Part shown: positions 4,111 to 18,735 of the stretch, one piece after another
How positions within the stretch are numbered: the first letter of the stretch is position 1
Layout: each line of letters begins with the position of its first letter
Virus record (IMG/VR): IMGVR_UViG_3300046009_010245
Span: 1 to 21,037 of that record
Direction: 5' to 3' (one strand)
DNA length: 21,037 nucleotides
Source of the DNA: a virus
Translations under genes and position numbers: made by a program
Notes under the pieces: generated by a model
The model's database searches: none
Seen by the model: the letters and a program-made list of their open reading frames with translations, nothing else
Told to the model about the DNA's origin: nothing

Positions 4111-4676
4111 AAATCAAATATGTCTTTTTTTACTTTTCTTTTTCTTTTTATAGGCTTCTTTGGTGAACACATCTCATCAAATCGTTCCATGTCGGAATCC
4201 GTCAACCCAAAAAAGTCTTTTCTTCCTATGTCGATACCTGAATAGATTTCGTTGAACCAGTTCTGAAAGTCTTTATTGTTCTGTTGCTCTGCAAATTTAA
4301 ATTGTGTGTACTTTTCTTTTTTTTCCTTGTTTATTATACGTACAAAAGAAAACCAGCATATTTGGGTTAGGTACCCAAATGGGCTGGTTGACTTCTTTGG
4401 GTCAAAGTTGTCGATGTATGTTATGCAGTTTAATACTGCGTCTGACACCATTTCTTCTCTGTATGGATAATTTGCAAAGTTTGGTCTATAGGAAAGTCTG
4501 GTTGCTATTTTTAGAATGCATTCACCGAGATAGTCGGTTAATTTTGGTTTTTTTCTTCCAGAGTTTTCCGCTTCTTTGCACTTTTTTTTGTATTCAACCA
4601 AAGCATCATAGAGTGCTTGATTGTCTACATAATCAGCATCTGTAGATTTTAATTTTTTTCTCTTTGGTTTTTTCAC
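4107..4676 (-). CDS. 55: Late-transcription sigma factor gp55
   Basis: This minimal sigma70-family factor directs host RNA polymerase to TATAAATA late promoters. Its 189 residues match T4 gp55 (185). The central segment (MVSDAVLNCITYIDNFDPKKSTSPFGYLTQICWFSFVRIINKEKKE, about residues 80-125) is the sigma region 2-like part of the family. The C-terminus ends KKDIFDL, a hydrophobic/acidic motif like the T4 gp55 clamp-binding tail, which docks on gp45. The only usable start is GTG (4676-4674), because a TAG lies four codons upstream in frame and no ATG intervenes. No Shine-Dalgarno sequence is obvious. The gene follows the glycan island by 37 bases with no visible terminator, so island transcripts may run into it. 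Confidence 0.93.
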   Translation of the reverse strand: MKKPKRKKLKSTDADYVDNQALYDALVEYKKKCKEAENSGRKKPKLTDYLGECILKIATRLSYRPNFANYPYREEMVSDAVLNCITYIDNFDPKKSTSPFGYLTQICWFSFVRIINKEKKEKYTQFKFAEQQNNKDFQNWFNEIYSGIDIGRKDFFGLTDSDMERFDEMCSPKKPIKRKRKVKKDIFDL

Positions 4677-4713
4677 AATATAATACTAACACATAATCAT
4701 CTAAAAACAAAGA

Positions 4714-7326
4714 TTAATTTAAATAATCGGAAAACTCCATTTCACATACTTTATATTCAATAGAATTATTTTTTTCCAATTCTTTTATATTCAAAAAAAC
4801 AACATCTTTTTCTAAAAAATTTTTATTGTTTTCTTTGATATAATCAAAGAAATTCCACGCAAGAACAATTAAAACTTTTGGCAAATTATCCAAAGCATAA
4901 TTTTTATTTTTTATCGGAATATTAACTCCTGGAATAAACTTACCATGTTTCATTATATTATCATCGATAGTATAATTAATGTGAGTATTATTGATTCCAA
5001 AATAATTCAATGATGTTGTTGCTTTAGCAGGAGATCCATAAGCAGCAATTTTTCCATATTTGTTTTTTAAATATTTTATATTTTTGTTAACAATAATTTT
5101 TATTGCATTTATGTCATTGGCAAATTTTTCATATATGGAAAAATTAGTGATTCCAAAATCTTTTTCTTCTTGTATAAACTTTTCAACACTGGGATCTATA
5201 TTGCAACCCTGTCTAGAAATATAAACGCGAATTGATCCTCCATGTGTATCAATGTGTTCTACTTTATACACACAAAGATTTAAACGATTAAAAAAGTTAT
5301 TCAAAGAAGTAACACTCCAATAATTGTAGTGTTCATGATAAATATTGTCAAAAGTTAAATCTTTAATAGTATCTTTTAAATATTGAACTTCAATTACAAA
5401 AGAACCTTTGTCATTTAATAAATCAAAAACATTGTTGGCAATATCTTTTAATTCATCGGAGTGTGCAAATACGTTAGATGCGGTTACCAATGCAGCTTTT
5501 CCATATTGATTCAATATTTTATCTACGGTTTCTTTCTTAAAATATTCATTTATTGTAGGTATGTTATTTTTGTTTGCCAACTCTGCAATATTTTTTGCTG
5601 GTTCAACGCCAACAACTGGTATTTGTTTTTCTTTTAATGGTTTTATTGCTATTCCGTCATTGCTGCCAATATCCACAACAAGTGTCGATGGTCCTAAATT
5701 AAATTCTGAAATATATTTTTCTGCAGCTTCTTCAAAATGTTTTCTAAATTTTGCAGTGGTAGAAGAAACATACAGATAATTGTCAAACATTTTGCTTGCA
5801 GGAACTGAAACCGACAATTGGCAATTGTGACATTTTGGACAGTAATTCATTTCCAATGGATACATGTCAACATCTTCTTCCAAGGTATTTTTTAAATTAT
5901 TTGCAAGAGGTGAATTGCCCAATGAAATTACTCTTTCAAGATACTTATTGTCGCATGCTCTGCATGTTGTTTTGTAACTTTCAAGTAAAAGATTTTTAGT
6001 CTTTTCGTTTACTAGTTCATATGGAAGTGTGTGGCTGATCCCGTAATTTTCGTGTTCTCTTTCTCCTCTTACCAAATTTAAAAATATAGAATCTTCGGTA
6101 AATACCATTGCATGTGCAACGTTGGGTTTAATTATGGCAACATCACCTTCATTTATTACTCTTGTTTCTATAGGTGAGTTTGGGACAGACAAATCTTTAA
6201 TTACGCTTATGTATTGACCTTTAATCAAAAGACATTTTTGTTCCTGTATTGGATGGTAATGATTTGCCCTTACCGTACCTTTTTTGGATTCTATGTATCC
6301 TATTAGGTTGATGGGTTCTGTCAATTCATAGTTTAATATTTTTCCACGATAGTCTTTGTATTCTTTACCACCACGATCAATATATTCCAAATCTTGTTTT
6401 ATTTTTTTCTCAGACCAATTATGAATCATCTCTTTTAAACAATCTTTAAGATTGTATCTAAATTCAAATCCGGTTTCCAACAATTTTTTATTTGATATCG
6501 TATAACCCAAATTTGGAATTTCATCTTGAGTTTCTATTACATTCACATCCGGATTGATTTCTTTGCAAAGTTCTGCTACTTTTTTTACTGTTATATTTTC
6601 CTTTGAAAGATGGAATGTTTCTTTGTTTATGTCCTTTCTTTCTGCCATGTATTTTATACATCTTGCCACATCAAATAGTGGTACCAAACTTTTTACTTGC
6701 ACTCCTCCGGAATATAATTTTATTGTTCCATTTTGTGCTGTTATTTTTGCAAACAAATTTGGCATTATACTCATTCTTGTGCTGTCTGTAGAATAGCCAT
6801 AAACAGAACCAAGACGAAGAATAACATAATTTTTGTCAGAATTTTTTAAATCATTTTCTGATTGAACTTTTACAGTTGAATAAGTGAGTACTGGTGTCGG
6901 GGGTTCTGATTCATCAATTCCCAATTTTGTTTTATCAAAACCCTCATATACAACATGTGTTGATGGAAAAATTATTTTGCAATCTTTTTTTACATTGTTT
7001 ATTATATTTTTAGTTCCATCAATACCGGTGCTTCTTATTAACTCGTCTTGCTCTTTGTTTTCCTGCGTCTTTACATAAGCAACGTCAGTTATTCCAGCAA
7101 GATGAATAACCACATCAGCATCTTGAATATGATGCTTTAAATCATTTTCATCAAGAATAGAACATTGAACATAATCGATACCCCAATCTCTAAGTTGTTT
7201 GACTCGTTCAGATAAAAATTTTTTATCTAAAACTACGATATTTTTAAATCTGGCTTCGCCAGAATATAGTTTGCAGAGTTCACTCCCAATGTATCCAAGA
7301 CCACCTGTAATAACAATTTTTTCCAT
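4714..7326 (-). CDS. Triple-domain sugar enzyme: SDR epimerase/reductase + cupin + zinc-binding C-methyltransferase
   Basis: One ORF fuses three modules; residue numbers count from an in-frame ATG at 7350. Residues 9-310 are an NAD(P)-dependent extended SDR with GGLGYIG (16-22), PSTHVVYE (129-136) and catalytic YSTVK (157-161), acting on a nucleotide sugar. Residues 335-445 form a cupin-like domain with HYHPIQEQ (364-371), as in dTDP-sugar isomerases. Residues 460-878 are a C-methyltransferase: zinc ligands CRAC (463-466) and CPKC (504-507), SAM loop VVDIGSNDG (558-566), and a C-terminal domain with AAYGSPAKATT (769-779). Together they suggest formation of a branched or C-methylated deoxysugar. 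The preferred start is the second ATG (7326), giving MEKIVITGGLGYIG; the first ATG (7350) belongs to a duplicated initiation region. Substrates are not known. Confidence 0.85.
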   Translation of the reverse strand: MEKIVITGGLGYIGSELCKLYSGEARFKNIVVLDKKFLSERVKQLRDWGIDYVQCSILDENDLKHHIQDADVVIHLAGITDVAYVKTQENKEQDELIRSTGIDGTKNIINNVKKDCKIIFPSTHVVYEGFDKTKLGIDESEPPTPVLTYSTVKVQSENDLKNSDKNYVILRLGSVYGYSTDSTRMSIMPNLFAKITAQNGTIKLYSGGVQVKSLVPLFDVARCIKYMAERKDINKETFHLSKENITVKKVAELCKEINPDVNVIETQDEIPNLGYTISNKKLLETGFEFRYNLKDCLKEMIHNWSEKKIKQDLEYIDRGGKEYKDYRGKILNYELTEPINLIGYIESKKGTVRANHYHPIQEQKCLLIKGQYISVIKDLSVPNSPIETRVINEGDVAIIKPNVAHAMVFTEDSIFLNLVRGEREHENYGISHTLPYELVNEKTKNLLLESYKTTCRACDNKYLERVISLGNSPLANNLKNTLEEDVDMYPLEMNYCPKCHNCQLSVSVPASKMFDNYLYVSSTTAKFRKHFEEAAEKYISEFNLGPSTLVVDIGSNDGIAIKPLKEKQIPVVGVEPAKNIAELANKNNIPTINEYFKKETVDKILNQYGKAALVTASNVFAHSDELKDIANNVFDLLNDKGSFVIEVQYLKDTIKDLTFDNIYHEHYNYWSVTSLNNFFNRLNLCVYKVEHIDTHGGSIRVYISRQGCNIDPSVEKFIQEEKDFGITNFSIYEKFANDINAIKIIVNKNIKYLKNKYGKIAAYGSPAKATTSLNYFGINNTHINYTIDDNIMKHGKFIPGVNIPIKNKNYALDNLPKVLIVLAWNFFDYIKENNKNFLEKDVVFLNIKELEKNNSIEYKVCEMEFSDYLN

Positions 7327-7363
7327 TTGTATTCTTTCTAATTTTTCCATCTGTATTCTTTCT
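7316..7363 (-). repeat. 24-bp tandem duplication of a ribosome-binding/start region
   Basis: Two adjacent 24-bp copies (7340-7363 and 7316-7339) match at 22 of 24 positions. Each carries AGAAAGAATACA, a purine-rich ribosome-binding stretch, followed by ATGGAAAAA or ATGGAAAAAA. The duplication is in frame (24 = 8 codons), so either ATG can open the same ORF. The downstream copy puts the ATG at the expected family N-terminus. Confidence 0.85.
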
Positions 7364-7396
7364 AAAACAATATACTATAAAGTTTTTACAAATCAA

Positions 7397-7945
7397 TTAT
7401 AATTCAAAAATCCAGCAAGATCCAGATTTTTTTACACCTGGTAACAATTCGTTGATTGCTCTATCTACTGGGCCATAATTGCAGTCATGGCCAGCCAAAA
7501 TTCCACCTGGTGCTATTTTTGGTAACCAATGTTGTATGTCTTCTTTTATAAATTCATATTCGTGGGAAGCGTCAATAAACACAAATTGCAAACTTTTTTC
7601 TTTATATAGTTTTGATGCTTCTACCGAAGTATTTTTTATAGGAATTATTATACTTGAAAGTGGTTTAATATTTTCTAAAAATACTTCATATAATTTATCT
7701 TCTTTTACTGCGGGGTCATTCATGTGAGATTCCACTTCTGGTGATCCCTTCCATGTATCTACACAATCAAATTTAATATTTTTTTGAGAATTATAAATTT
7801 CAACACCCATATAAACTGCGCTTCTTCCTTTCCAAGAACCAACCTCAACAAAATGAGAACCGTTTGGGTATTTTAATACAATTGAACTGTATAAATCTCC
7901 ATAATCAAACCAATTTTCTCCAATATTTTGATAATAATGTTCCAT
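7397..7945 (-). CDS. Class I SAM-dependent methyltransferase (Methyltransf_24-like)
   Basis: This 182-residue soluble methyltransferase is probably for sugar or glycan O-methylation. The SAM-binding loop FVEVGSWKGRSA is at 32-43, the acidic strand FIDASHEYE at 123-131, and GGILAGHD at 147-154 ends the core. This pattern belongs to the small Methyltransf_24/macrocin-O-methyltransferase-like group often found in polysaccharide clusters. Its ATG shares one base with the stop of the upstream epimerase (TAATG), a tight coupling. The downstream gap to the fusion gene is 46 bases. The acceptor cannot be read from sequence. Confidence 0.82.
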   Translation of the reverse strand: MEHYYQNIGENWFDYGDLYSSIVLKYPNGSHFVEVGSWKGRSAVYMGVEIYNSQKNIKFDCVDTWKGSPEVESHMNDPAVKEDKLYEVFLENIKPLSSIIIPIKNTSVEASKLYKEKSLQFVFIDASHEYEFIKEDIQHWLPKIAPGGILAGHDCNYGPVDRAINELLPGVKKSGSCWIFEL

Positions 7946-8910
7946 TATTTTAGTCCTTTAATCCAATTATATGTTTTTTCAAGACCATAAGTTAATGGCT
8001 TAGTGGGGTGCCAATTTAACTTTAGTCTCATCAAGTTGTTATCAGAATTTCTTCCACGAACTCCTTGTGGGCCAGAAATATTTTTGATTGTTAATTTTTT
8101 ATTTGCAATTTGCATAACTATTTCTGCCAACTTATTTATCGATACCATTTCTTCTGAACCAATATTAAGTGGCCCGTTGAAGTCCGATTCCATGAATCTT
8201 CTTACCGCTTCAACGCATTCATCAATATAAAGGAAAGATCTTGTTTGCTGACCATCTCCCCATATTTCCATGGTTTCGTCTTCAGAGAATGCAACCTTTC
8301 TGCATATTGCTGCGGGTGCTTTTTCTTTTCCATTGTTCCAAGAGCCATATGGACCAAAGATATTATGAAATCTTCCAATTCTAACAGGAAGACCATAATT
8401 TCTGTTGTATGCTAGATATAAACGCTCGCTGAATAACTTTTCCCATCCATACTCGCTGTCTGGTGCAGCTGGATATGCAGACTCCTCGGAACACTTTGGG
8501 TTGTTTGGATCTAGCTGGTTATATTCCGGATAAATGCAAGCAGAAGACGAGTAGAAAATTTTTGGCATCTTTGTATATCTTACTGCTTCATTTGCGATGT
8601 TCAGATTGATCTGCGCTGAGTTATGCATAACATCCGCATCATGATTTCCAGTAAAGATATATCCTGCTCCACCCATATCTGCGGCCAATTGATAGATCTC
8701 ATCAAAGGTTTGACCTTCATCTATTCTCATTGAATTTTTTACTTGAGCAGGGTCCCGAAGATCAACAACATAAAATTGATCTGCATCCGATTGTTTGTAT
8801 TCGTGGATTTTTATGTCTGCTGCACGAACAAAATAACCTTCATTTTTAAGACGAGTAACTAGATGACCCCCAATAAATCCACCACCACCACACACTAATG
8901 CTGTTTTCAT
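7945..8910 (-). CDS. GDP-mannose 3,5-epimerase-like SDR
   Basis: This enzyme probably converts GDP-D-mannose to GDP-L-galactose or GDP-L-gulose. It has an N-terminal GGGGFIG NAD loop (8-14), SACIYPE (123-129), YGWEK (154-158), RFHNIFGPYG, KEKAPAA (195-201), GDGQQTRSF and GVRGRNSDNN, a series I recognise from plant GDP-mannose 3,5-epimerase. The catalytic residues known in the Arabidopsis enzyme (C145, Y174, K178, K217) correspond to C125, Y154, K158 and K197 here, all with the same offset of 20, so the active site looks intact. The length of 321 is slightly shorter than plant GME, lacking only an N-terminal extension. Local GC is visibly higher than in flanking genes. Some bacterial relatives may use other sugars; this family subtype is likely but unproven. 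Confidence 0.87.
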   Translation of the reverse strand: MKTALVCGGGGFIGGHLVTRLKNEGYFVRAADIKIHEYKQSDADQFYVVDLRDPAQVKNSMRIDEGQTFDEIYQLAADMGGAGYIFTGNHDADVMHNSAQINLNIANEAVRYTKMPKIFYSSSACIYPEYNQLDPNNPKCSEESAYPAAPDSEYGWEKLFSERLYLAYNRNYGLPVRIGRFHNIFGPYGSWNNGKEKAPAAICRKVAFSEDETMEIWGDGQQTRSFLYIDECVEAVRRFMESDFNGPLNIGSEEMVSINKLAEIVMQIANKKLTIKNISGPQGVRGRNSDNNLMRLKLNWHPTKPLTYGLEKTYNWIKGLK

Positions 8911-8911
8911 T

Positions 8912-9685
8912 TTAATCCTTTATATATTTTTTAAACTTGTCCATATTATTTAACACATATTTTGGAAGATAAGACAAATCAGCAATACATTTTAATTTTA
9001 TGTAATTTCTATTAAGAGGATCTATCAAATGCTCTAAACGATTTTCAACAGCATTTAATGATTCGTCTTTCCAGTCATCATGAGCATAATTTTGAAGTTT
9101 ATTTAAAACGTGATTTTTATTTCCTAAAAAAGAAAAGTGCCAACCACCATTTTCAATACCATGAAATTGATGTTTATTGTGTCTAGTAATTTGAGTATTT
9201 GATAAAAATGTATTTTTTCTAAGCATACACGAACTTTGGCTCAAGGTGGAGCCACGATCTTCGGCCTGAGTATTTAAATAATAATAATGCAATATTTGAT
9301 TAAACAATACTGGAAATTTATTTTCTTTTAAAGCTATTTTAACAGCATCAGAGGATGGAATTTCATCTAAATCGGATATAATTATCAAATCATCGTCTGT
9401 TGCATTTTCCAAGCCATAAGTAATGTGATTTCTCTGCATTACATCATTGTACATTGGATCATTTGGTCTAAATTTATCCGCATCAACAATTACATGAATT
9501 ATTTTAGGTAAAAATTTTTCATATTTATGAATATTTTTTTGAAATAGCATTTCTTTTGGTTTGTTTTGATGTGTTCTTTCTCCCTCTACAATTACAAAAT
9601 AATCAACAACATCATTTAATTCATTTAATCTGATTTCCAATAAATCAACTTCATTATAAAACATGAAACAATCATAAATTTTCAT
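8912..9685 (-). CDS. Glycosyltransferase family 17-like
   Basis: This 257-residue protein is like GT17 enzymes, whose founding member is the eukaryotic beta-1,4-GlcNAc transferase MGAT3; bacterial and viral members act on unknown glycans. The N-terminus KIYDCFMFYNEVDLLEIRL with VDYFVIVEGERTHQNKPK is the family hallmark, and a DLDE metal-binding motif (105-108, in ISDLDEIPS) follows. No membrane segment or signal peptide is present. The start overlaps the upstream methyltransferase stop by four bases, and the stop lies one base before the epimerase ATG. Donor and acceptor are unknown. Confidence 0.85.
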   Translation of the reverse strand: MKIYDCFMFYNEVDLLEIRLNELNDVVDYFVIVEGERTHQNKPKEMLFQKNIHKYEKFLPKIIHVIVDADKFRPNDPMYNDVMQRNHITYGLENATDDDLIIISDLDEIPSSDAVKIALKENKFPVLFNQILHYYYLNTQAEDRGSTLSQSSCMLRKNTFLSNTQITRHNKHQFHGIENGGWHFSFLGNKNHVLNKLQNYAHDDWKDESLNAVENRLEHLIDPLNRNYIKLKCIADLSYLPKYVLNNMDKFKKYIKD

Positions 9686-10269
9686 TTGTTAATTCTTTCT
9701 AAAATAGTCAAGCCATTATTGTTTGTTCTTTTTTCTATTAATTTCCAATTTTTATTTTCTTTTAAAAATTCTTCTATGGCTGGCCAAAGACCTTGGATTT
9801 CAGAATTTGTAATTTTACCTGTGTCATAGTTATTTTCATCGACAATTCCATACAATTCTGTATCATGAAAAATTAAAAATTTATTAACTTTTGTGTGATG
9901 TCTATTAAGTTCACTTTTCAATTGTTGATATGTATGCATGGTATCGATAAACAAAAGATCTGTTTCATCTATATCAATAGTTCTAGTATCACCTAATACA
10001 AATTTATAATTAATATTATTTTTTTTTGAATACTCCACAATTTCATTAAATTCTTTTTCACGACCCCAATGACTTGGGTGCTTTAAATCTACGCAAACCA
10101 TTTTTTTTGGGTTTGAAAAAATTAAAGCAACTGTTGAAACTACTCCCCTAACTCCAAATTCAGTAATTGATGTACATTTTTTCCCATATTCAAATAATAT
10201 AGATAAATGTTCATTTATATCAGAAGGCGTGTTGATTAAATCGTTTAAAGTATTATTTAATGTTTTCAT
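9682..10269 (-). CDS. Class I SAM-dependent methyltransferase (CmcI/Methyltransf_24-like)
   Basis: This is a 195-residue soluble protein with a SAM-loop-like TEFGVRGVVS (36-45), an acidic LLFIDTMHTYQQ (105-116) and LIFHDTELYG further on. This is the layout of the cephalosporin-hydroxylase/CmcI-type and Methyltransf_24 proteins found in glycan clusters. It is distinct from the methyltransferase at 7397-7945; the two share only core motifs, so this does not look like a recent duplication. It overlaps the downstream GT17-like gene by four bases and lies 36 bases after the GT-A-like gene. A putative sugar O-methyltransferase role is inference. Confidence 0.75.
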   Translation of the reverse strand: MKTLNNTLNDLINTPSDINEHLSILFEYGKKCTSITEFGVRGVVSTVALIFSNPKKMVCVDLKHPSHWGREKEFNEIVEYSKKNNINYKFVLGDTRTIDIDETDLLFIDTMHTYQQLKSELNRHHTKVNKFLIFHDTELYGIVDENNYDTGKITNSEIQGLWPAIEEFLKENKNWKLIEKRTNNNGLTILERINK

Positions 10270-10305
10270 ATTTAATTATCCAAGTTTAAATAAAAAATTT
10301 GTTTT

Positions 10306-11004
10306 TTAATTTTTAAAGTCATTTAATATTTTTTCCCAATCTAATCCCGGACTTAAAAAATTTTCATGCACGTGTGTACTTACACCGGGAATCGGGGTAA
10401 ATAGTCTAATATTTTTTGTGTACAATTCTCTAAAAAAATTTCTATCATTTGCAAGATGTTTTTTTGCATATGGTAAAATTTCTTTTAACATTTTTTTAGT
10501 ACACATAAAAGTGGCAGTAGTACTTTCCGCTGTTCTCCAATGAGTATTGTTTTTAAAAAATATGCTTTCCATACCAAACGAAATATCATCATCTCTAGTG
10601 TATCTATCTAAATGATCATATCCACTTATTAATTCAAATGTTTTAACACCATCCAACATAATATTTAAAGCATTTGAAGTATGTACATAATCATCTTCTA
10701 AAAAATAGATGTAATCCGAAGAAGAAAAATTTTCTGCATAATCAAATTTAAAAAAAACAGATTTTATTACGGAATTAAAATTGTTAAAAATTACTTTATA
10801 ATTTAATTCCTCGGCTTTATTCGATAAAATATTTTTATGATCTGAATCCATTAAAACTATTAATTCTACTGGATAATTGCAGGACTGTATTGTTTTTTGC
10901 AAATTAAAAAAACAATCCATTTTATTGAACCATTTTGGTCTTCCCGGTCTGGAATTTATTCCATTTAATTCTGCATTGCACGCTGAGTAAAGTATAGTAA
11001 GCAT
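10306..11004 (-). CDS. Putative GT-A-fold glycosyltransferase
   Basis: This is a 232-residue protein with an N-terminal LTILYSACN strand, ELIVLMDSDHKN (about 47-58) and a YIYFLEDDYVHT segment (98-109) in which EDD (103-105) is a plausible DxD-type metal and nucleotide-sugar site. The layout resembles GT-A (GT2-like) enzymes but I cannot place it in a numbered family. The C-terminal VSTHVHENFL may supply a metal-ligand His. No membrane segment is present. Sampled DNA within this gene is among the most AT-rich in the window (22% GC over 10441-10500). Substrate unknown. Confidence 0.7.
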   Translation of the reverse strand: MLTILYSACNAELNGINSRPGRPKWFNKMDCFFNLQKTIQSCNYPVELIVLMDSDHKNILSNKAEELNYKVIFNNFNSVIKSVFFKFDYAENFSSSDYIYFLEDDYVHTSNALNIMLDGVKTFELISGYDHLDRYTRDDDISFGMESIFFKNNTHWRTAESTTATFMCTKKMLKEILPYAKKHLANDRNFFRELYTKNIRLFTPIPGVSTHVHENFLSPGLDWEKILNDFKN

Positions 11005-11025
11005 AAAAATAATTTTTTATAGGTG

Positions 11026-12018
11026 TTATTTTATTTTCCAAAAATCATATATACCTTTTTCAAGTTCATATGAAGACCACAATTTTCTTTCTTGCATTGG
11101 TTGATTTTTTGCCCAATCCCACATTTTTGTAAGACCTAATTTTAAATTTGTTGGATTTTTAAAATTTAAAATTGTTTTAATTTTATCATGTGATACCCAA
11201 GCATCTTTTACTTCATGTCTCTTTTCCAAATAAACTTTCTCCCCGCCACCCATCACTTCAATTAAAATATTGCATGCTTTATTTATTGAACAGTGTTCGT
11301 CACCTCCAATATTAAAAATTTGTTTTGAGGCTTTTGGATCTATAGCACCCTTCCAAAAATACGGAACACAATCATCAACATAACTAAAGGCTCTGGTTTG
11401 GGTTCCGTCTCCGTATATAGACATAGGCATACCATTCATGTGTTGATACATCCAAATACCCAACACGTTTCTGTATTTGTCCCAGATATTTTGTTTTACT
11501 CCATAGACATTATGTGGTCTAAAGATGCACCAATCCATTCCATGTTGCTCCCCGGCTATTTGTATATCCATTTCACATGCATACTTCGCAACACCATATG
11601 GATCAATTGGGTTTTGTTGGTATGCTTCAACGAATGGTGGTTTGTTGACACCATATACTGCCATCGTTGAAGTAAAAACAAATCTTTTTACTTCATGTTT
11701 AATCGATTGGTTTATGAGCCTAGTTGTGGCAATTAAGTTGTTTTCGTAATTAAATTGACGAATAAAGGGGCTTAAACCTTCGGCAGCATATGCTGCAAAA
11801 TGAAAAACATACTCCGGTTTGTGTTTTTCAAACACATCAGCCAAATAATCTGATGAAGCAAGATTTAGTTTGTAGAATTCAACTTTGCTGTTTATATTAT
11901 CAGAATATCCACCACTTAAATCATCAATTCCAATTATATTGCACTTTACGTTTTCTGAAAGCCAATCTGCCAAACGTGAACCCAACAAACCCGCCACACC
12001 AGTTATTAAAATATTCAT
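11026..12018 (-). CDS. NAD-dependent nucleotide-sugar epimerase/dehydratase (GalE-like SDR)
   Basis: This extended SDR has the NAD-binding loop GVAGLLG (7-13), FTSTMAVYG with Ser117/Thr118, and the catalytic YGVAK (Tyr141, Lys145). The motifs RPHNVYG, YGDGTQTRAFSYVDD and FNIGG match UDP-glucose 4-epimerase-type enzymes. The 330-residue length fits. It likely interconverts a UDP-sugar for the island's transferases, though a dehydratase is possible. It is a different lineage from the GDP-mannose-epimerase-like SDR at 7945-8910 and from the SDR module of the fusion protein. Seven bases separate it from the upstream DUF5672 gene, and its leader carries ACTGTGAGAT, also found before the first island gene. 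Confidence 0.85.
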   Translation of the reverse strand: MNILITGVAGLLGSRLADWLSENVKCNIIGIDDLSGGYSDNINSKVEFYKLNLASSDYLADVFEKHKPEYVFHFAAYAAEGLSPFIRQFNYENNLIATTRLINQSIKHEVKRFVFTSTMAVYGVNKPPFVEAYQQNPIDPYGVAKYACEMDIQIAGEQHGMDWCIFRPHNVYGVKQNIWDKYRNVLGIWMYQHMNGMPMSIYGDGTQTRAFSYVDDCVPYFWKGAIDPKASKQIFNIGGDEHCSINKACNILIEVMGGGEKVYLEKRHEVKDAWVSHDKIKTILNFKNPTNLKLGLTKMWDWAKNQPMQERKLWSSYELEKGIYDFWKIK

Positions 12019-12022
12019 ATTA

Positions 12023-12032
12023 ATCTCACAGT
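12023..12032 (-). repeat. Shared 10-bp leader motif ACTGTGAGAT (copy 2, before GalE-like ORF)
   Basis: The same ten bases (minus strand) occur at 16693-16702 before the GT25-like gene. Here the motif ends four bases before the ATG, spanning the DUF5672 stop codon. It acts as a moderate ribosome-binding sequence (GTGAGAT) or may be a repeat left by recombination. Confidence 0.4.
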
Positions 12033-12727
12033 TCTATATTATTTAGACGCATTACTTCAAGCATATGAGTATCTTTTCCATGAAATCCAAATGTTTCATT
12101 TGGATTTGTGTATACTTCATTTACAAACAAACTTTCGCATGAAAATGTTTTAGCCAAATCAAATGAAGCAAATTTATGATTTTTTTCTTCTAATTGTTTT
12201 CTAAAACCAATGCATATTAAAACATCTTCTGGTATGCCAGAATAATCTAAGTTCATAAGAGATGAAACATCTGTCATCAATTTTTTGCTTCTCATGCAAA
12301 AACCACCATTTCCAATATGGAAAGTATTATTTGATTCTATCAACTTTTCGTGAACAAAAGGCCATCTTTGTGTATTAAAAAACAAATGTTTTTTTGGCCA
12401 TGGTGCTCCAATGTAATCATATTGTTGATAATCTGGATTCCATTTATCTGAATGGGTTATAAAACCATCGTCTTGAACAATTATAACAAATTCAGTATCT
12501 ATGTGTTTTACCAAATCAACCAAGCAAAATTTATTGTATCCATCATAGGTTAATTTTGGTATTTCAACATGAGAATAAAAATCAGACTTTCCAAAATTTG
12601 TGTTGCAAAAAAATTTAACATCACCAAATTTAATCCCATTGCAACTATATTTTAGTGCTTTGAGGTGATTTGAATCTTTTCCAACACCATCTATACTTAC
12701 CAAGGTTGTATTTATTAAATTTATCAT
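12026..12727 (-). CDS. DUF5672-family protein (probable glycosyltransferase)
   Basis: This 233-residue protein matches my recollection of DUF5672, a family found in glycan clusters. The region VIIVQDDGFITHSDKWNP (81-98) carries an acidic DDG motif like the metal site of GT-A enzymes, and DYIGAPW (104-110) follows, as does GNGGFCMRSKKL, a typical glycosyltransferase acceptor-side strand. The C-terminus FGFHGKD is also typical. A function is not experimentally assigned as far as I know. Its start overlaps the DUF6165 stop by four bases. I infer a glycosyltransferase, donor unknown. Confidence 0.75.
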   Translation of the reverse strand: MINLINTTLVSIDGVGKDSNHLKALKYSCNGIKFGDVKFFCNTNFGKSDFYSHVEIPKLTYDGYNKFCLVDLVKHIDTEFVIIVQDDGFITHSDKWNPDYQQYDYIGAPWPKKHLFFNTQRWPFVHEKLIESNNTFHIGNGGFCMRSKKLMTDVSSLMNLDYSGIPEDVLICIGFRKQLEEKNHKFASFDLAKTFSCESLFVNEVYTNPNETFGFHGKDTHMLEVMRLNNIEL

Positions 12728-13098
12728 TCTATGTTTGGAAGAATTTTTTCTTCCGTTATTTGGCTGTTTGATAATACATTGATTTTTTTCTTAATCAAGA
12801 ATCTTTTATCGTTAGTAATGTATACGGATCTAGCTAACTCTACAAATTCTTTATCAAATTGTTTTTTTTCTTCTAATATTCTTATTTTATCTTCAATTTC
12901 CCAAAGAGTTTCATTAATTTGTTGCAAAGTTTCAAGTAATTTTTGATCAATATTCAAAGTCTCAACTGCTTCTTTTAAAACTGAATATTCATTTAACAGA
13001 TTTGTATGTTTTTCTGTATGAGTGCTACACTTCTTCAACTTTATGTTTACTATTGTATATTTGTCTACAATTTCTCCATTTGATACTTCTATTTTCAT
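12724..13098 (-). CDS. DUF6165-family small protein
   Basis: This is a 124-residue, helix-rich protein beginning KIEVSNGEIVDKYTIVNIKLKK, the recognisable N-terminus of DUF6165. The middle (about 25-95) is heptad-like and Glu/Lys-rich, probably a coiled coil (ETLQQINETLWEIEDKIRILEEKKQ). No catalytic motif is visible. The family commonly occurs beside glycosyltransferases in my experience, and here it lies one base from a GT9-like gene and overlaps DUF5672 by four bases. It could be a subunit or scaffold for the neighbouring transferases, which is inference. Function unknown. Confidence 0.72.
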   Translation of the reverse strand: MKIEVSNGEIVDKYTIVNIKLKKCSTHTEKHTNLLNEYSVLKEAVETLNIDQKLLETLQQINETLWEIEDKIRILEEKKQFDKEFVELARSVYITNDKRFLIKKKINVLSNSQITEEKILPNIE

Positions 13099-13099
13099 T

Positions 13100-13837
13100 T
13101 TAGATCATGTAAGTCCAATTTACGTTTCTATAGACCATGTTGGTCAGGTTGTAATATGTTGGACTTTCATTCTCCCTTCTTTTTTCATACATGAAAATAT
13201 TATCTGTTTTGCTGTATTTGTCAACCAAATAACACAGAGATGTTTCTACCGTATGTATTTCAGTTGCTTTTTCAATAACACCAATCCAGTCAAAAAGATT
13301 GAACTGATGTTCTTTGTCTTTTTCAAATGACATTTCTATAACCTGATTGTCTGTATGTATTTTTGGAGTTGAACAAACGACATGATTTGGTGGAGTTCCA
13401 TATGTCATATTGAAAAGTGTAAATGGTTTTTTAAGATTTATATTATACTCATCAATCAACTTTTGCTCACGCTCTTCACTTCTTGTGAGACTAAAACTTT
13501 TGTGCCAATTGGTTAATGGTGTATTTGTGTAATAATACTTGCTGGCCATTATAGAACAATTTTTTAAATAATAGTTTGAAAACGAAACCGGAACGTAAAG
13601 ATCCATTTCTGTATTTACTCCCATGTGGGATCCATACAGTTCTTTCATTGGAAACTCTTCCGATTCACGGTGCCAAACTAAATTTGGTTTTTGTAATTGA
13701 GTTGCAAGCATTTCATAATAAAGGTCTATGACTGGCACATGAACTCTGTAGCCACTCTCAATATACCGATCTATTATTGGTTGAATCCAAATTATGTCAC
13801 CCAATCCACATGGCTGATATATCAAACAATTTTTCAT
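13100..13837 (-). CDS. GT9-like (heptosyltransferase-type) glycosyltransferase
   Basis: This 245-residue protein has the N-terminal IYQPCGLGDIIWIQPII segment, the GLGD loop (11-14) of ADP-heptose:LPS heptosyltransferase-type (GT9) GT-B enzymes. The C-terminal half contains IGVIEKATEIHTVETSLCYLVDK, comparable to the GT9 donor-site helix with its Thr/Ser-Glu pair. It is shorter than standard heptosyltransferases (about 320-350), so one Rossmann half may be reduced. It overlaps the GT10-like gene by four bases. A transferase role is probable, but heptose as donor should not be assumed. Confidence 0.7.
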   Translation of the reverse strand: MKNCLIYQPCGLGDIIWIQPIIDRYIESGYRVHVPVIDLYYEMLATQLQKPNLVWHRESEEFPMKELYGSHMGVNTEMDLYVPVSFSNYYLKNCSIMASKYYYTNTPLTNWHKSFSLTRSEEREQKLIDEYNINLKKPFTLFNMTYGTPPNHVVCSTPKIHTDNQVIEMSFEKDKEHQFNLFDWIGVIEKATEIHTVETSLCYLVDKYSKTDNIFMYEKRRENESPTYYNLTNMVYRNVNWTYMI

Positions 13838-14661
13838 AAGAGTTCCACTATTCTATCGTACAAATAATCATCAGAAGTCTGATGATTCATACATCTTTCA
13901 AAGTTGTCCTTGATGGCATCCATCTTGCTGTAATAAAGATCTTCATTTAAATTATTTATGTCGAACTTGTCATCTAGAAGTATGATTCCATCCATGTTGA
14001 ACATTTTCACAACTTCCGGAGTTCCGTAGTAGATTGGAATGGTTCCGCAGGCAAAGCAATCCATAAGTTTTTCTGTGTAATAGTTTGAATAGCGTTCATT
14101 CTCTATGGTAATTGAGAAACAGTAATCACGCAATACATCTTCTTTTTTCTCAAATGAATTGAATGATCTTCCGTAATAATCTATTGGGAATCCAGTGTTT
14201 TTGAACTGAATCATCGTGTTGTTTCTAAAATGATGTCCATTACACATGGTCTTGCCAGAAGAAACCATTGAAACTAGTTTTGTTTTTGGATGTATTCCCC
14301 GGTCAACAACCCAAGTTGAATTTGCCGCAGGAGGACAATAAGAAAAAATGGGTGATATTTCTAACAACTCATGATCGTGTACAAATATTTTTTTATATAC
14401 TGATTGCATTTTTGAAGCGTTTGTCTTCAAAAAATGCATCTGGTGTGGAATGATTCCTTTTGACTCACATATCCACAAAAATTTATTTGGACAATTGCTT
14501 TTAATTCCACCAAATATATCATAATCAAGATAGACTTCTATGCCATCTATTGATTTTTTATCAAAAATCCATTTAAATTTTGAAGGAGGAACATTATGGC
14601 ATGAAGTTACATCATGTTTAAACGGACTTCCATACGCTGATAATTCTTTTGGCTTGATCAT
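13834..14661 (-). CDS. GT10-family (alpha-1,3/4-fucosyltransferase-like) glycosyltransferase
   Basis: This 275-residue protein carries the GT10 hallmark in its C-terminal half: FSITIENERYSNYYTEKLMD followed by CFACGTIPIYYG (about 182-213), the GDP-fucose-binding segment of this family. No transmembrane anchor is present, as in bacterial GT10 enzymes. GT10 members transfer L-fucose, or related L-sugars, from GDP donors. The island's GDP-mannose 3,5-epimerase-like enzyme could supply GDP-L-galactose as an alternative donor. GC is somewhat higher than in its neighbours (38% over 13981-14040). Start and stop overlap the adjacent genes by four bases each. Confidence 0.83.
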   Translation of the reverse strand: MIKPKELSAYGSPFKHDVTSCHNVPPSKFKWIFDKKSIDGIEVYLDYDIFGGIKSNCPNKFLWICESKGIIPHQMHFLKTNASKMQSVYKKIFVHDHELLEISPIFSYCPPAANSTWVVDRGIHPKTKLVSMVSSGKTMCNGHHFRNNTMIQFKNTGFPIDYYGRSFNSFEKKEDVLRDYCFSITIENERYSNYYTEKLMDCFACGTIPIYYGTPEVVKMFNMDGIILLDDKFDINNLNEDLYYSKMDAIKDNFERCMNHQTSDDYLYDRIVELL

Positions 14662-15266
14662 TTCTTTTTATAAAAAGCATCACCCCAAGTTTGTCCATCC
14701 CAACTTGTTACAATTCTTTCAAAACCAAACTGTTTCAAGAACTCATCGATTTGCTCAACCATTGGGCAATCCTTATACAACTCTGCTCTGTTTACTTCGC
14801 AAAGAAGGTATTGAACTTTTTCAAGTGTCTTTTTTGCACCTTTCAATACTTCCAATTCATATCCCTGAACATCAAGTGTAATTAAATTATAATTAAAATC
14901 ATTATTATTAAAATATTCATCTAAAGTAGTAACATTTACTGTTTCTGATGATTCAAATTTAATTGATGGATATTGTAATAAATGTAAAGCAGGCATTAAT
15001 AAAGAACTTGATTGTCCTCCGTTTGAATGCTCTACAAACATGGTTGCTGTTTTTTTTTCAGAACCTAAAGCTATATTTTCTATTTTTACACCTTTTGTTG
15101 GACCCAATTTTATTAATAATTTTTCATATATTTGTTTTTGTGGTTCAAACATTAAAATATTTGTAGACAATTTACTTAAAAAATCATATTCATTTCCTAA
15201 GTGCGCACCGACTTGTATTATACCATTAATTTTAGAATCTATGTATGGATTTATGTCAAATAGCAT
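14658..15266 (-). CDS. FkbM-family methyltransferase
   Basis: This class I SAM methyltransferase of the FkbM family typically O-methylates sugars or polyketide hydroxyls. Numbering from an in-frame ATG at 15281, SAM loop IIQVGAHLGNE is at 21-31, EPQ at 46-48, and the family hallmark LITLDVQGYELEVLKGA is at 133-149. I prefer the second ATG (15266), which shares one base with the upstream fucosyltransferase stop (TAATG). The more upstream ATG overlaps that gene by 16 bases. DNA composition breaks sharply inside the gene near 14880 (35% GC over 14821-14880, 12% over 14881-14940). It overlaps the GT10-like gene by four bases. Acceptor unknown. Confidence 0.84.
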   Translation of the reverse strand: MLFDINPYIDSKINGIIQVGAHLGNEYDFLSKLSTNILMFEPQKQIYEKLLIKLGPTKGVKIENIALGSEKKTATMFVEHSNGGQSSSLLMPALHLLQYPSIKFESSETVNVTTLDEYFNNNDFNYNLITLDVQGYELEVLKGAKKTLEKVQYLLCEVNRAELYKDCPMVEQIDEFLKQFGFERIVTSWDGQTWGDAFYKKK

Positions 15267-16054
15267 TATATTATTTTCCAATCTTCACAATAAATATCAG
15301 ACCAATTTTTTGGCATGTCTGGAGAATTTCCAAACCATTCTGACGGAGCAATTACTTTTTTAGAGTTGCTTAACCATGCTCCCCACCAACTAAAACTGCT
15401 GTTGGCAATTACATGATATTCACATAGAGACATAGTACACATGTCAACAAACTGATTTTCACTTTCTGTTATAAAATATTTTTTGTTTAATGAATCAAAT
15501 ACATCTTTTGCTAAAGCGGGCTCATCACTGAAAGCAATAATTAACATGTCTTCTGGAAGTTCTTTTAAAGCTTCTTTGTAATATTTAATTGAACAAATTG
15601 GATGCTTGCTTACTAAATTTTTGTAATCTCCAAGTCGCAAATGAACACTTATAACTGGTTCTTTTGTTATTGATCGAATATCTGTTGCCTTAAACTTTAT
15701 TTCTTGATTAAAATCAAATTCATTCAATAGATCAGATCTATAATCTTTAAAATATTTTTCACTTTGAAAATAACCAGTTATATCCGTATTATCCAGTACA
15801 CCAAATATTCCAGCATTGTATGTAAATTCTCTTTCCTGTGCTCTATGCCTTGAAACTAAATTTGTGCTGTCTTTTGCGGAAAGATTTGAAAAACATTCAT
15901 TTAAACAAAAGTTGTGATATGGGTTTTCTGATTTTTTTTGCATAGGTACGCCAAATTCATATCCTCTTGTTTTTGCAATTGCATACAAGGTAGCGTATTG
16001 AAACATTTGGTTTCCCATTCTTCCATATGTTCCCATCAAATTAAAAGTGATCAT
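15266..16054 (-). CDS. GT11 alpha-1,2-fucosyltransferase-like protein
   Basis: This 262-residue GT11 enzyme has GRMGNQMFQYA (11-21), the family N-terminus, HLRLGDY (138-144), the HxRxGD-type GDP-binding motif, and ANSSFSWWGAWLS (217-229), the classic alpha-1,2-fucosyltransferase C-terminal motif. These enzymes transfer L-fucose from GDP-fucose to terminal galactose. No GDP-fucose synthesis genes (GMD, fucose synthase) are in the window, so the donor would come from the host or another locus, or be GDP-L-galactose made by the island's epimerase. The start overlaps the GT25-like stop by four bases. The protein is soluble, with no anchor. Confidence 0.88.
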   Translation of the reverse strand: MITFNLMGTYGRMGNQMFQYATLYAIAKTRGYEFGVPMQKKSENPYHNFCLNECFSNLSAKDSTNLVSRHRAQEREFTYNAGIFGVLDNTDITGYFQSEKYFKDYRSDLLNEFDFNQEIKFKATDIRSITKEPVISVHLRLGDYKNLVSKHPICSIKYYKEALKELPEDMLIIAFSDEPALAKDVFDSLNKKYFITESENQFVDMCTMSLCEYHVIANSSFSWWGAWLSNSKKVIAPSEWFGNSPDMPKNWSDIYCEDWKII

Positions 16055-16686
16055 GGAAAAATAAAATTTCTGTTTTCTAACGGTGAGTCAGTTAATGATT
16101 GCCATTTATTTGCATTTTCTCTATCGTTTGACTGATATATTAATGGCTGTATAGTACAATACACTTTTTGTTGAAACTGTATAGAAGATGTTCCTATGTC
16201 CCATGGAACACCCATAGTATACAAACAATGTCTTCCAACGTCTGCCATGTGTTTTCTGTATGATGGTGTTACATACAAAATAGCATGAGCAGCAAGTATC
16301 CCCCCAATTCTATAGTAATTATCATTAATTTTTTGTGTTACGTAATTTCTATTTCCATGAGAAATGCCCAAATATACTCCATCAGAATCTTCTGGAATGT
16401 CTAATATTGGATTAAAATTGTCAACAAATTCTACGTCATCTTCCAATATTAAAAGGGGTGTAGAATATTCCGTATTTTCCAAAATATCAATGTGAGATTG
16501 ACCACATCCCATAAAATGGTAAATTGATTTTTCTGTATTTGGTGGTGGCTCTATCACCAATCCTGATTTTTTGTGTGTATTTTTAAATCCGTGTTTTTTT
16601 AATCTTTCTTCCATTGTCTCTGCATTTTTTGTTGCGGAGTCAAGATTAATCCAAACAACCGGTATTTCCCTAAGATCTATAATCAT
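16051..16686 (-). CDS. GT25-like glycosyltransferase (first gene of the island)
   Basis: This 211-residue protein resembles GT25 enzymes (LPS biosynthesis galactosyltransferase type). It has an N-terminal VVWINLDSATK with MEERLK, GCGQSHIDIL (60-69), which is the GC-x-x-SH signature, and LLILEDDVEFVDN (78-90) with the EDD metal motif. The C-terminus is shorter than in many members. It is the promoter-proximal gene of the island, with a leader of roughly 11 bases after a predicted start near 16697 and a weak ribosome-binding sequence (GAGAT). GT25 members include both lipooligosaccharide and collagen hydroxylysine galactosyltransferases, so a protein acceptor is possible. Confidence 0.8.
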   Translation of the reverse strand: MIIDLREIPVVWINLDSATKNAETMEERLKKHGFKNTHKKSGLVIEPPPNTEKSIYHFMGCGQSHIDILENTEYSTPLLILEDDVEFVDNFNPILDIPEDSDGVYLGISHGNRNYVTQKINDNYYRIGGILAAHAILYVTPSYRKHMADVGRHCLYTMGVPWDIGTSSIQFQQKVYCTIQPLIYQSNDRENANKWQSLTDSPLENRNFIFP

Positions 16687-16703: not shown

Positions 16704-16731
16704 ATTATAGTTTATTTAAAATAAATGTCAA
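16704..16731 (-). promoter_or_regulatory. Consensus sigma70 promoter driving the glycan island
   Basis: The minus strand carries TTGACA (16731-16726), a 16-base spacer and TATAAT (16709-16704). Both hexamers are perfect consensus, rare by chance, and the predicted start near 16697 is just upstream of the first island ATG at 16686. I infer early transcription by host RNA polymerase. Confidence 0.82.
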
Positions 16732-16746
16732 ATATATTTATTTGAC
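16727..16746. repeat. Inverted repeat holding divergent -35 elements
   Basis: GTCAAATA (16727-16734) and TATTTGAC (16739-16746) form an 8-bp perfect palindrome around a 4-base centre. The left half supplies the -35 of the island promoter and the right half a TTGACT -35 facing uvsY. It may be a shared regulator site or a coincidence of two -35 boxes placed back to back. Confidence 0.6.
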
Positions 16747-16781: not shown

Positions 16782-17219
16782 ATGAATCTAGAGAACCTTA
16801 AAGAACTTATTACTAAAGACTCTCAAATAGACTCTACAGAGTTAGGTATAGAGTCTCTTAAGATACCTCAAATACACTCCAAGTATTTAACAATACTTGC
16901 AGATGTCAAATTACTTTTGACAAAACACCAAAATGACTTGGCAGTATTAAAACTTCGTAAGTGGAAAATTTATACCGGCAAGGCGTCTAGGGAGGAACTT
17001 GAAAGTTGGGGAGAGGAACCCTCAGAATTAACACTGCTAAAAAGCGATGTTGAGCAATTTGTGGAAGCGGATCCAAAAGTCATAGAACTTAAAGCTAGGC
17101 TATCCGTAACCGAAATAAAATTAAAAATGGTAGAGGAATTTATTAGATCCCTTAACAATAGAAATTTTATGATAAAATCTGCCATTGAATGGCAAAAAAT
17201 GATGAATGGCATAGTATAA
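16782..17219 (+). CDS. uvsY: Recombination mediator UvsY
   Basis: UvsY helps the UvsX recombinase displace single-stranded DNA-binding protein (gp32) and assemble on ssDNA. The 145-residue length fits T4 UvsY (137), and the N-terminus MNLENLKELITKDSQIDSTEL parallels T4's MRLEDLQEELKKDVFIDSTKL. The middle KLRKWKIYTGKASREEL is the basic DNA-binding-like region, and the C-terminal IRSLNNRNFMIKSAIEWQKMMNG matches the hexamer-forming helices of the family. It is divergent from the glycan island, with 95 bases between the start codons, and no strong Shine-Dalgarno sequence is seen. Its stop codon lies inside the late promoter of uvsW, so the two genes can be read at different times. Confidence 0.92.
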   Translation: MNLENLKELITKDSQIDSTELGIESLKIPQIHSKYLTILADVKLLLTKHQNDLAVLKLRKWKIYTGKASREELESWGEEPSELTLLKSDVEQFVEADPKVIELKARLSVTEIKLKMVEEFIRSLNNRNFMIKSAIEWQKMMNGIV

Positions 17220-17226: not shown

Positions 17227-18735
17227 GTGGATATTGAAGTTGAATCTATTGATGAAGTTCGTTACTACATCAAAACAGAACAAGCACTCAAGAAAGAACT
17301 AAGGGATTATTTTTCCTTTATGGTTCCCGGTGCTCAATATATGCCTATGTTCAAGCGTAGGCTTTGGGATGGTAAAATTCGTCTTTACGACATTTTATCA
17401 TCTACTTTGCCGAGGGGATTGAAATCATATCTTCAAAAATTCTGTGAAGACAGAAAATACTCCTTAAATATTAAAGAAAGCAAAAACCCTTTATGCATTA
17501 CGAAGGAAAAACTTTCGGAGTTTTACAAATCTTTGAAGGTTACAGTTCGCAAAAAAGACGTCCAGATGCACGACCATCAGGAACAGGCTATTTTGCATGC
17601 ATTGAACAATCATCGTTCGGTGGTGATTTCTCCCACAGGATCTGGAAAAAGTCTCATTATATACGTATTGGTTCGATTTCTTCAAACGGTACTTCCTACA
17701 GACCGCAAGATTCTTATTCTGGTTCCTACGGTTGGCTTGGTCAACCAGATGGAATCGGATTTTTTTGATTATTCCGGGCAGGACAAGTCGTGGTCTTGCA
17801 AAAAATACATTCACAAGATATCTGCTGGACAAGACAAGGACACTAAAAAGCAGATTGTTATATCCACGTGGCAGTCAATTTACAAGTTGCCAAAGGAATG
17901 GTTTTCTGACTTTGACGCCATATTCTTTGATGAGTGTCATCAAGCGAAGGCAGAGTCAATAAACTTCATAGGACAGAAGCTCCACAAGGCTTGGTTTAGA
18001 ATCGGGACTACAGGAACCCTCCAGCAGACACAGGCCCACAGACTGAGCATAGAAGGAATTCTAGGGCCTGCTGTGCAGTTTATACAAACCAAAAACCTAA
18101 TGACAAAGGGATTGCTTGCAAAGCTAGACATAGATTGCATAATTCTTAAATATAAGGAAGAGGACAAGCAACTGCTGAAAAAGCAGAAGTATGCCGACGA
18201 GATAAAGTGGATCGTAAGCAATGACGAACGAAACAAATTCATCAAAGACCTCGCATTGCGGACAAAGGGAAACACCCTCATACTCTTCAACTATGTCGAA
18301 CTGCATGGACGACCCCTCACGGCTATCATCGAAGCAGAAGCAGGTGATAGAAAAGTATATTTCATCTCTGGAAAGACAGAAGCAGAAACAAGAGAATACA
18401 TACGAAAGGTCGTTGACAAGGAAACGGATGCAATACTGGTGGCAAGTTTTGGCACTACCAGTGCTGGCATTAACATTGTCAATCTTGACAATATTATATT
18501 TGCGTCACCTACTAAATCCGTGATTCGGCTGCTCCAGAGCATTGGTCGTGGATTGCGCGTTTCTGCAAGAAAAAAATCGCTGAAAGTATATGACGTGGTA
18601 GATGACCTTACTATGAAATCGCACAAGAACCACGTCTTCAAGCACTTTGAAGAACGCCTGAAGATATACAAGCGTGAAAAGTTTGATCACAAAATACATT
18701 CAATGATGTTCGGGCAAAGCTCAAAAGATAAATAG
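17227..18735 (+). CDS. uvsW: UvsW superfamily 2 helicase
   Basis: UvsW unwinds R-loops and branch-migrates recombination and fork intermediates, shutting off origin replication and promoting recombination-dependent replication late in infection. Walker A SPTGSGKS (about 135-142), Walker B DECH (235-238), GTTGTL, and motif VI QSIGRGLR (437-444) are all present. The length is 502 (T4 502). The start is GTG: it yields MDIEVESID, matching the T4 N-terminus MDIKV, whereas an ATG two bases upstream is out of frame. No Shine-Dalgarno sequence precedes it. The protein looks intact. It is followed by 15 bases and a strong ribosome-binding site for the next ORF. Confidence 0.96.
   Translation: MDIEVESIDEVRYYIKTEQALKKELRDYFSFMVPGAQYMPMFKRRLWDGKIRLYDILSSTLPRGLKSYLQKFCEDRKYSLNIKESKNPLCITKEKLSEFYKSLKVTVRKKDVQMHDHQEQAILHALNNHRSVVISPTGSGKSLIIYVLVRFLQTVLPTDRKILILVPTVGLVNQMESDFFDYSGQDKSWSCKKYIHKISAGQDKDTKKQIVISTWQSIYKLPKEWFSDFDAIFFDECHQAKAESINFIGQKLHKAWFRIGTTGTLQQTQAHRLSIEGILGPAVQFIQTKNLMTKGLLAKLDIDCIILKYKEEDKQLLKKQKYADEIKWIVSNDERNKFIKDLALRTKGNTLILFNYVELHGRPLTAIIEAEAGDRKVYFISGKTEAETREYIRKVVDKETDAILVASFGTTSAGINIVNLDNIIFASPTKSVIRLLQSIGRGLRVSARKKSLKVYDVVDDLTMKSHKNHVFKHFEERLKIYKREKFDHKIHSMMFGQSSKDK
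18727..18734 (+). promoter_or_regulatory. Late-promoter-like box GATAAATA
   Basis: This octamer matches seven of eight positions of the TATAAATA late box and overlaps the uvsW stop (TAG, 18733-18735), the same arrangement as the boxes at 1343 and 17215. It may be a weaker late promoter for the following ORF. Confidence 0.4.

Follow-up and report, generated by a model that had tools for sequence, protein, structure and literature searches.

A replaceable glycan cassette between gp55 and uvsY in a lineage of T4-like phages

Why would a T4-like phage carry fourteen genes, most of them for sugar enzymes, between its late sigma factor and its uvsY gene, and do its relatives carry the same ones? 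The locus lies in IMG/VR virus record IMGVR_UViG_3300046009_010245, whose complete 21,037 bp we analyzed as one window. An initial annotation, made from the letters alone, had placed a one-strand, 14-gene glycan island with ATGA overlaps at 4714-16686. Its coordinates and minus strand were borne out: 14 open reading frames (ORFs) of 124–878 amino acids run from 16686 down to 4714, neighbouring ORFs overlapping by up to 16 nt or standing up to 46 nt apart, several of the junctions being 4-nt ATGA overlaps. GC content is 25–37% inside the island, against 35–49% in the surrounding window. We find that this interval is a slot whose contents differ from phage to phage.

Content and replacement of the slot

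To compare the slot across relatives, 80 gp55 relatives and 80 uvsY relatives were fetched from viral contigs, and loci were joined by exact overlap with one copy retained. Besides the window, 38 IMG/VR contigs hold both gp55 and uvsY, and the interval between the two (6.3–15.2 kb) is filled in every one of them. For four slots, two contigs were merged where they overlap exactly over 1.2–7.7 kb or more, which leaves the comparison of L013 with L028 below unaffected. Each slot holds 8–19 ORFs of low GC, on the gp55 strand with one exception. Together, the slot ORFs form 171 clusters over 39 slots, 82 of which are singletons, and most slot representatives match families of sugar enzymes and transferases. 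With the window genes lettered A to N from the uvsY side, A recurs in 30 of the other 38 slots, B in 28, D in 20, G in 10, F in 2, and I and N in none; three additional contigs (L245, L251 and L252) do carry N, on their gp55 side. Most slots open at uvsY with A-B-D or with an alternative block, 7-24-25-34-26, which includes a DXD-type glycosyltransferase (GT), a GT2 enzyme and a UDP-GlcNAc 2-epimerase, and the interior is mosaic. The two closest relatives share ten of the 14 window families, but the exact 14-gene set was found nowhere else, and the same 14 genes are not fixed across the relatives. In two large relatives, G001 (137 kb) and G002 (126 kb), slot-type ORFs are confined to this slot; each phage therefore seems to carry one cassette.

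Cargo is replaced wholesale or in blocks, independently of the flanks. Across 686 pairs, cargo similarity did not track flank identity on either the uvsY side (Spearman −0.02) or the gp55 side (0.03), and the identities of the two flanks are themselves only weakly correlated (0.20). L013 and L028 have flanks that are 96% and 92% identical and zero cargo clusters in common. L024 and L025, with flanks at 97% and 96%, share only the first cassette genes, and L002 and L024, with flanks at 76% and 74%, share all cargo families. In swapped pairs, DNA homology returns at positions −16 to 0 relative to the gp55 start codon; at the uvsY edge, homology stops +62 to about +2,500 from uvsY, past the promoter or the first cassette genes. 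The simplest route of exchange would be homologous recombination through the conserved flanks. That this is a replaceable slot, taken on its own, we hold with high confidence, and the predicted hotspot with different cargo in each phage is what we observe in this lineage.

Low GC and contents that differ per contig could also be the mark of neutral stuffer DNA or of an assembly chimera, and “stuffer DNA” has been suggested for cyanophage lipopolysaccharide (LPS) clusters (PMC3037559). However, the ORFs are full-length throughout with catalytic residues retained, family content is consistent, and the same promoter and edges occur in 39 contigs, all of which makes this explanation highly improbable. 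An assembly artefact at the island edges is excluded, as independent contigs show the same gp55 and uvsY edges.

Edges, origin and control region

Core phage genes flank the island on both sides, as the initial annotation had held, with matches to gp55, UvsY, UvsW and Gp23 (5e-107). The right anchor is the late sigma factor gene gp55 (4107..4676, minus strand; phrog_234, 1e-51), on the same side as gp47 and gp46. The left anchor is uvsY (16782..17219, plus strand; Pfam UvsY 2e-26, phrog_231), which is divergent from the cassette and adjoins uvsW (17227..18735, plus strand; Pfam UvsW_N and ResIII), then a tail-tube gene and gp23. The T4 core genes present in the window (gp23, uvsY, uvsW, gp55, gp46/47 and gp45) mark it as T4-like with Kyanoviridae-like relatives. 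The closest cultured phages reach 47% identity in gp55 and 39% in uvsY, and none of 50,697 phage records matched the window in a near-identity search.

The slot is specific to this lineage rather than to T4-like phages generally, which limits the earlier suggestion of a T4-like hotspot. Five reference phages (HTVC008M, Mosig, P-SSM2, DLP6 and DSL-LC02) share the co-directional order gp23-...-uvsY-(x)-uvsW-small ORF-gp55-gp47-gp46, carry no cargo there, and have uvsY-uvsW in the opposite orientation. The window lacks the co-directional order gp23-uvsY-uvsW-gp55 seen in cyano- and pelagimyophages: its uvsY-uvsW-18751 block is inverted and the island sits between uvsY and gp55. Because the block is reversed relative to all five references, an inversion would have taken place before the slot opened or together with it. 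We found no arrangement intermediate between the reference order and the slot.

The edges enclose a conserved control region. In the window, the cassette promoter region (16704..16746, minus strand) contains an inverted repeat, GTCAAATAAATATATTTGAC (16727-16746), around a late-type TAAATA core, and a cassette-facing TTGACA-N16-TATAAT (16731-16704, minus strand). The uvsY/cassette intergenic region of all 39 slots carries an inverted repeat, GTCAA-N8-12-TTGAC, around (A/C)TAAATA, then TTGAC-N15-19-TATAAT/TATATT/TATACT toward the cassette; shuffled controls gave 0–0.5 where the slots gave 39/39. In two large relatives, sites of the TATAAATA/CTAAATA type stand before the late genes gp22 and gp23, and TTGACA-TA...T sites before gp55 and cobS. 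The late promoters of the clade are taken from these relatives, an exact scan of the window for TATAAATA being not above chance. From these motifs, the cassette promoter looks equipped for both early and late transcription. At the other edge, gp55 begins with GTG a few bases past a TATAAT-like box in most relatives (4677-4713 in the window), and its mRNA may therefore be leaderless.

Cassette genes and their predicted sugars

All island ORFs except the DUF6165 gene can be assigned to glycosyltransferases, methyltransferases or nucleotide-sugar enzymes. The family calls of the initial annotation mostly stand above Pfam cut-offs; E and I were placed by predicted fold, and the GT25-like A and RMNT/CmcI-like J fall slightly under the cut-off. 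All genes lie on the minus strand. Nearest the promoter, A (16051..16686) is a GT25-like glycosyltransferase (PF01755 9.8e-4, 19.5 bits against a cut-off of 24; phrog_24091 1e-37) and B (15266..16054) a GT11 of the alpha-1,2-fucosyltransferase type (PF01531 1.6e-20; phrog_2644 4e-75); PDB sequence searches with A and with B gave no matches. C (14658..15281) is an FkbM-type O-methyltransferase (PF05050 4.5e-21; TIGR01444 above cut-off), and D (13834..14661) a GT10 of the alpha-1,3-fucosyltransferase type (PF00852 4e-11; PDB FucT 1e-8). E (13100..13837) has no Pfam match; its AlphaFold model (pLDDT 79.5) is GT9/heptosyltransferase-like, with GT9 structure 3tov as best Foldseek match (1e-4, TM about 0.5) and 1psw also matched. 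F (12724..13098) carries DUF6165 (PF19662 6.6e-12), and G (12026..12727) DUF5672 (PF18922 2.5e-19), a glycan-associated yet uncharacterised family, here a putative GT-A-type enzyme.

Further along the cassette, H (11026..12018) is a short-chain dehydrogenase/reductase (SDR) of the UDP-hexose 4-epimerase type (PF01370 5e-44; UDP-glucose 4-epimerase 4zrm in PDB, 2e-47). I (10306..11004) has no Pfam match, and its low-confidence model (pLDDT 62) gave Foldseek matches to GT-A/NTP-transferase folds, suggesting a GT-A/nucleotidyltransferase-like protein; it is 29% identical to a relative in S-SRM01, tblastn gave remote relatives in other phages, and a viral-contig scan for it returned nothing. J (9682..10269) is an RMNT/CmcI-like methyltransferase (PF04989 1e-4, 22.5 bits against 23.2), K (8912..9685) a GT17 (PF04724 2.7e-31), and M (7397..7945) a class I methyltransferase (MT24; PF13578 1.2e-17). 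L (7945..8910) aligns over its full length with plant GDP-mannose-3,5-epimerase (PDB 2c59, 9e-100) and retains the catalytic Cys, Tyr-x3-Lys and second Lys within the ACIYPE, YGWEK and KEKAPAA motifs; on this alignment, L should make GDP-L-galactose from GDP-mannose.

The last gene, N (4714..7350), had been called a triple fusion, and its parts are indeed an SDR, a cupin-like middle and a sugar 3-C-methyltransferase of the TylC3/TcaB9 type (PF01370, PF08421, PF08484; 4rv9 3e-64), the C-terminal half resembling enzymes of the D-mycarose/TcaB9 type. The fusion is not exotic: we rejected an unusual chimera, as the same fusion is widespread in SAR11 and present in a 642-kb uncultured huge phage (LR756502.1, 451074-453650, at 66% identity). 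Pelagibacteraceae supply 79 of the 80 best genome matches to N. The SAR11 gene has the domain order of N and 55–59% full-length identity, and lies next to a GT17 in SAR11 genomes. Phage N copies are 58–79% identical to one another, closer than most are to cellular copies, and N is therefore not a recent transfer. The N and GT17 pair is probably a host surface-sugar module.

Combined, these assignments suggest a pathway. The lineage interval, from the divergent uvsY/cassette promoter to the gp55 start, is occupied in every slot by an operon of soluble GTs, sugar methyltransferases and nucleotide-sugar enzymes. In the window allele, L would supply GDP-L-galactose, H a 4-epimerised UDP-hexose and N possibly a C-methylated deoxysugar, which the GT10, GT11, GT17, GT9-like, GT25-like and other transferases would assemble as methyl groups are added. 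GT10 and GT11 are fucosyl-type families, for which L-fucose or L-galactose donors are conceivable, and those of the cassette could use either. Phage glycosyltransferases are also able to act on DNA (PMC12619734), so the genes might instead place sugars on phage bases against restriction. We regard this as very unlikely, since the fucosyl-/L-galactosyl-type GTs, FkbM methyltransferases and several NDP-sugar epimerases differ between close relatives, and a T4-type DNA glucosyltransferase is absent from the families listed.

Host surface or virion

No membrane segment was predicted in 526 of the 530 slot ORFs, and the other 4 have one each; the same script finds 6 in the E. coli O-antigen polymerase wbbH and 9 in the flippase rfbX. 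The slots therefore encode no flippase, polymerase or exporter. On these predictions, the cassette alone could not export or polymerise a glycan and must draw on host machinery or a cytosolic acceptor. Because a lipid-carrier transferase is missing as well, the product would be attached to an acceptor supplied by the host or by the phage.

Our leading interpretation, which we advance tentatively, is that an exchangeable glycan cassette, replaced by recombination, remodels the surface glycan of the infected host. Its most likely use would be a changed surface to which other phages or free progeny are unable to bind. A change of host surface against coinfection has been proposed for the glycan clusters of pelagimyophages and cyanophages (PMC7029224, PMC2984593), and the adjacency of N and GT17 in SAR11 genomes, as a cellular sugar module, is consistent with it. 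Several observations weigh against this interpretation. Recent homologous replacement is expected to leave peaks of single-nucleotide polymorphisms (SNPs), but of seven pairs, three show lower identity at the gp55 edge and the others are flat. Known phage seroconversion modules have integral membrane components, and none occurs in any slot here. The late-type promoter element fits virion glycosylation equally, as does the cassette beside fibre genes in contig G011, described below, and Fonsimyophages are reported to lack LPS genes (PMC7029224).

The cassette may instead glycosylate the phage's own virion proteins in the cytosol, such as collagen-like tail fibres or capsid, with replacement diversifying the particle surface; we judge this possible, though doubtful. 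Such a role would suit ORFs without membrane segments or export machinery and a slot that is never empty, and the TAAATA of the conserved promoter resembles the gp22/gp23 elements of relatives. In G011, a cassette ordered D-E-F-G-H-J-G-K-L-I-N is placed immediately upstream of genes for collagen-like tail fibres, and virion glycosylation is documented in mycobacteriophages by work cited in PMC12619734. Yet the gp55-uvsY slot and its neighbours hold no fibre gene, G002 has a full cassette and no GXY-repeat-rich fibre in 126 kb, the early-type TTGACA/TATAAT promoter is likewise conserved, and the N and GT17 pair is a cellular SAR11 module. The fuller proposal, a lytic T4-like lineage with an exchangeable virion-glycosylation locus for tail fibres or capsid and serotype-like particle variation, strikes us as rather unlikely. 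Between host surface and virion, we lean slightly toward the host surface. G011 (L257, L279-L281) is itself T4-like, with a near-identical cassette gene set, and G001 encodes a 2,467-amino-acid protein with 23 collagen-like GXY runs (L261:7856-15259).

Known systems offer partial parallels. Aquatic bacteria have replacement flexible genomic islands, comprising clusters for O-chain, flagellin and S-layer glycosylation (PMC4033161). Like them, the phage slot is a conserved, always-filled site in which different genes of similar function are exchanged independently of the flanks; unlike them, it lies in a lytic phage rather than a cellular genome, is shorter (6–15 kb), shows only partial SNP edge peaks and lacks flippase, polymerase and transporter. 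O-antigen and capsule clusters likewise encode Wzx/Wzy or ABC export and polymerisation proteins that the phage slots lack. LPS-type clusters of T4-like phages are already known at other sites (PMC3037559, PMC7029224). Those of cyanophages P-SSM2, S-SSM7 and S-SM2 are also operons of epimerases, glycosyltransferases and methyltransferases in T4-like genomes, but lie near hli03/phoH in a few large genomes and are not fixed in a lineage with swapped content (PMC3037559); the P-SSM2 cluster showed no membrane proteins in nine genes tested. Another hypervariable region of T4-like phages that includes glycosyltransferases is the pelagimyophage host recognition cluster, but it is built around tail-fibre genes (PMC7029224), whereas the present slot is fibre-free and lies in the replication/late-sigma region. 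The literature searched contained no description of a slot between gp55 and uvsY, nor of cassettes being replaced in phages. By analogy, the cassette is best understood as the viral equivalent of the “replacement” O-antigen islands of bacteria, in a new slot and lineage. Bacterial O-antigens vary at fixed recombining loci, and here the same population-genetic design appears in a virus genome. Since the promoter is conserved and the edges are fixed throughout a virus lineage, phage surface-sugar genes are not merely occasional captures. Exchange of whole gene sets suggests that phages diversify a sugar coat, carried either by the host or by the particles themselves. The idea of a serotype system run by viruses, on host coat or particles, becomes testable, and the slots supply a natural panel of alleles on near-identical backbones.

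The likeliest host, in our view, would be an aquatic alphaproteobacterium, perhaps SAR11, to which the matches of N point. Most cyanomyophages carry psbA. It was found in none of ten large relatives, whose contigs are fragments, which argues against cyanobacteria as hosts. Two large relatives carry permuted tmRNA genes (L266:1244-1643 and L273:5525-5923) and about ten tRNAs each. Permuted tmRNA genes fit alphaproteobacteria or cyanobacteria; against four SAR11-type genomes, the phage tmRNA gave a single 27-bp match, in one genome. Elsewhere in the window, a small ORF between gp46 and gp45 (1051-1335) shows weak similarity to an L-shaped tail-fibre assembly family.
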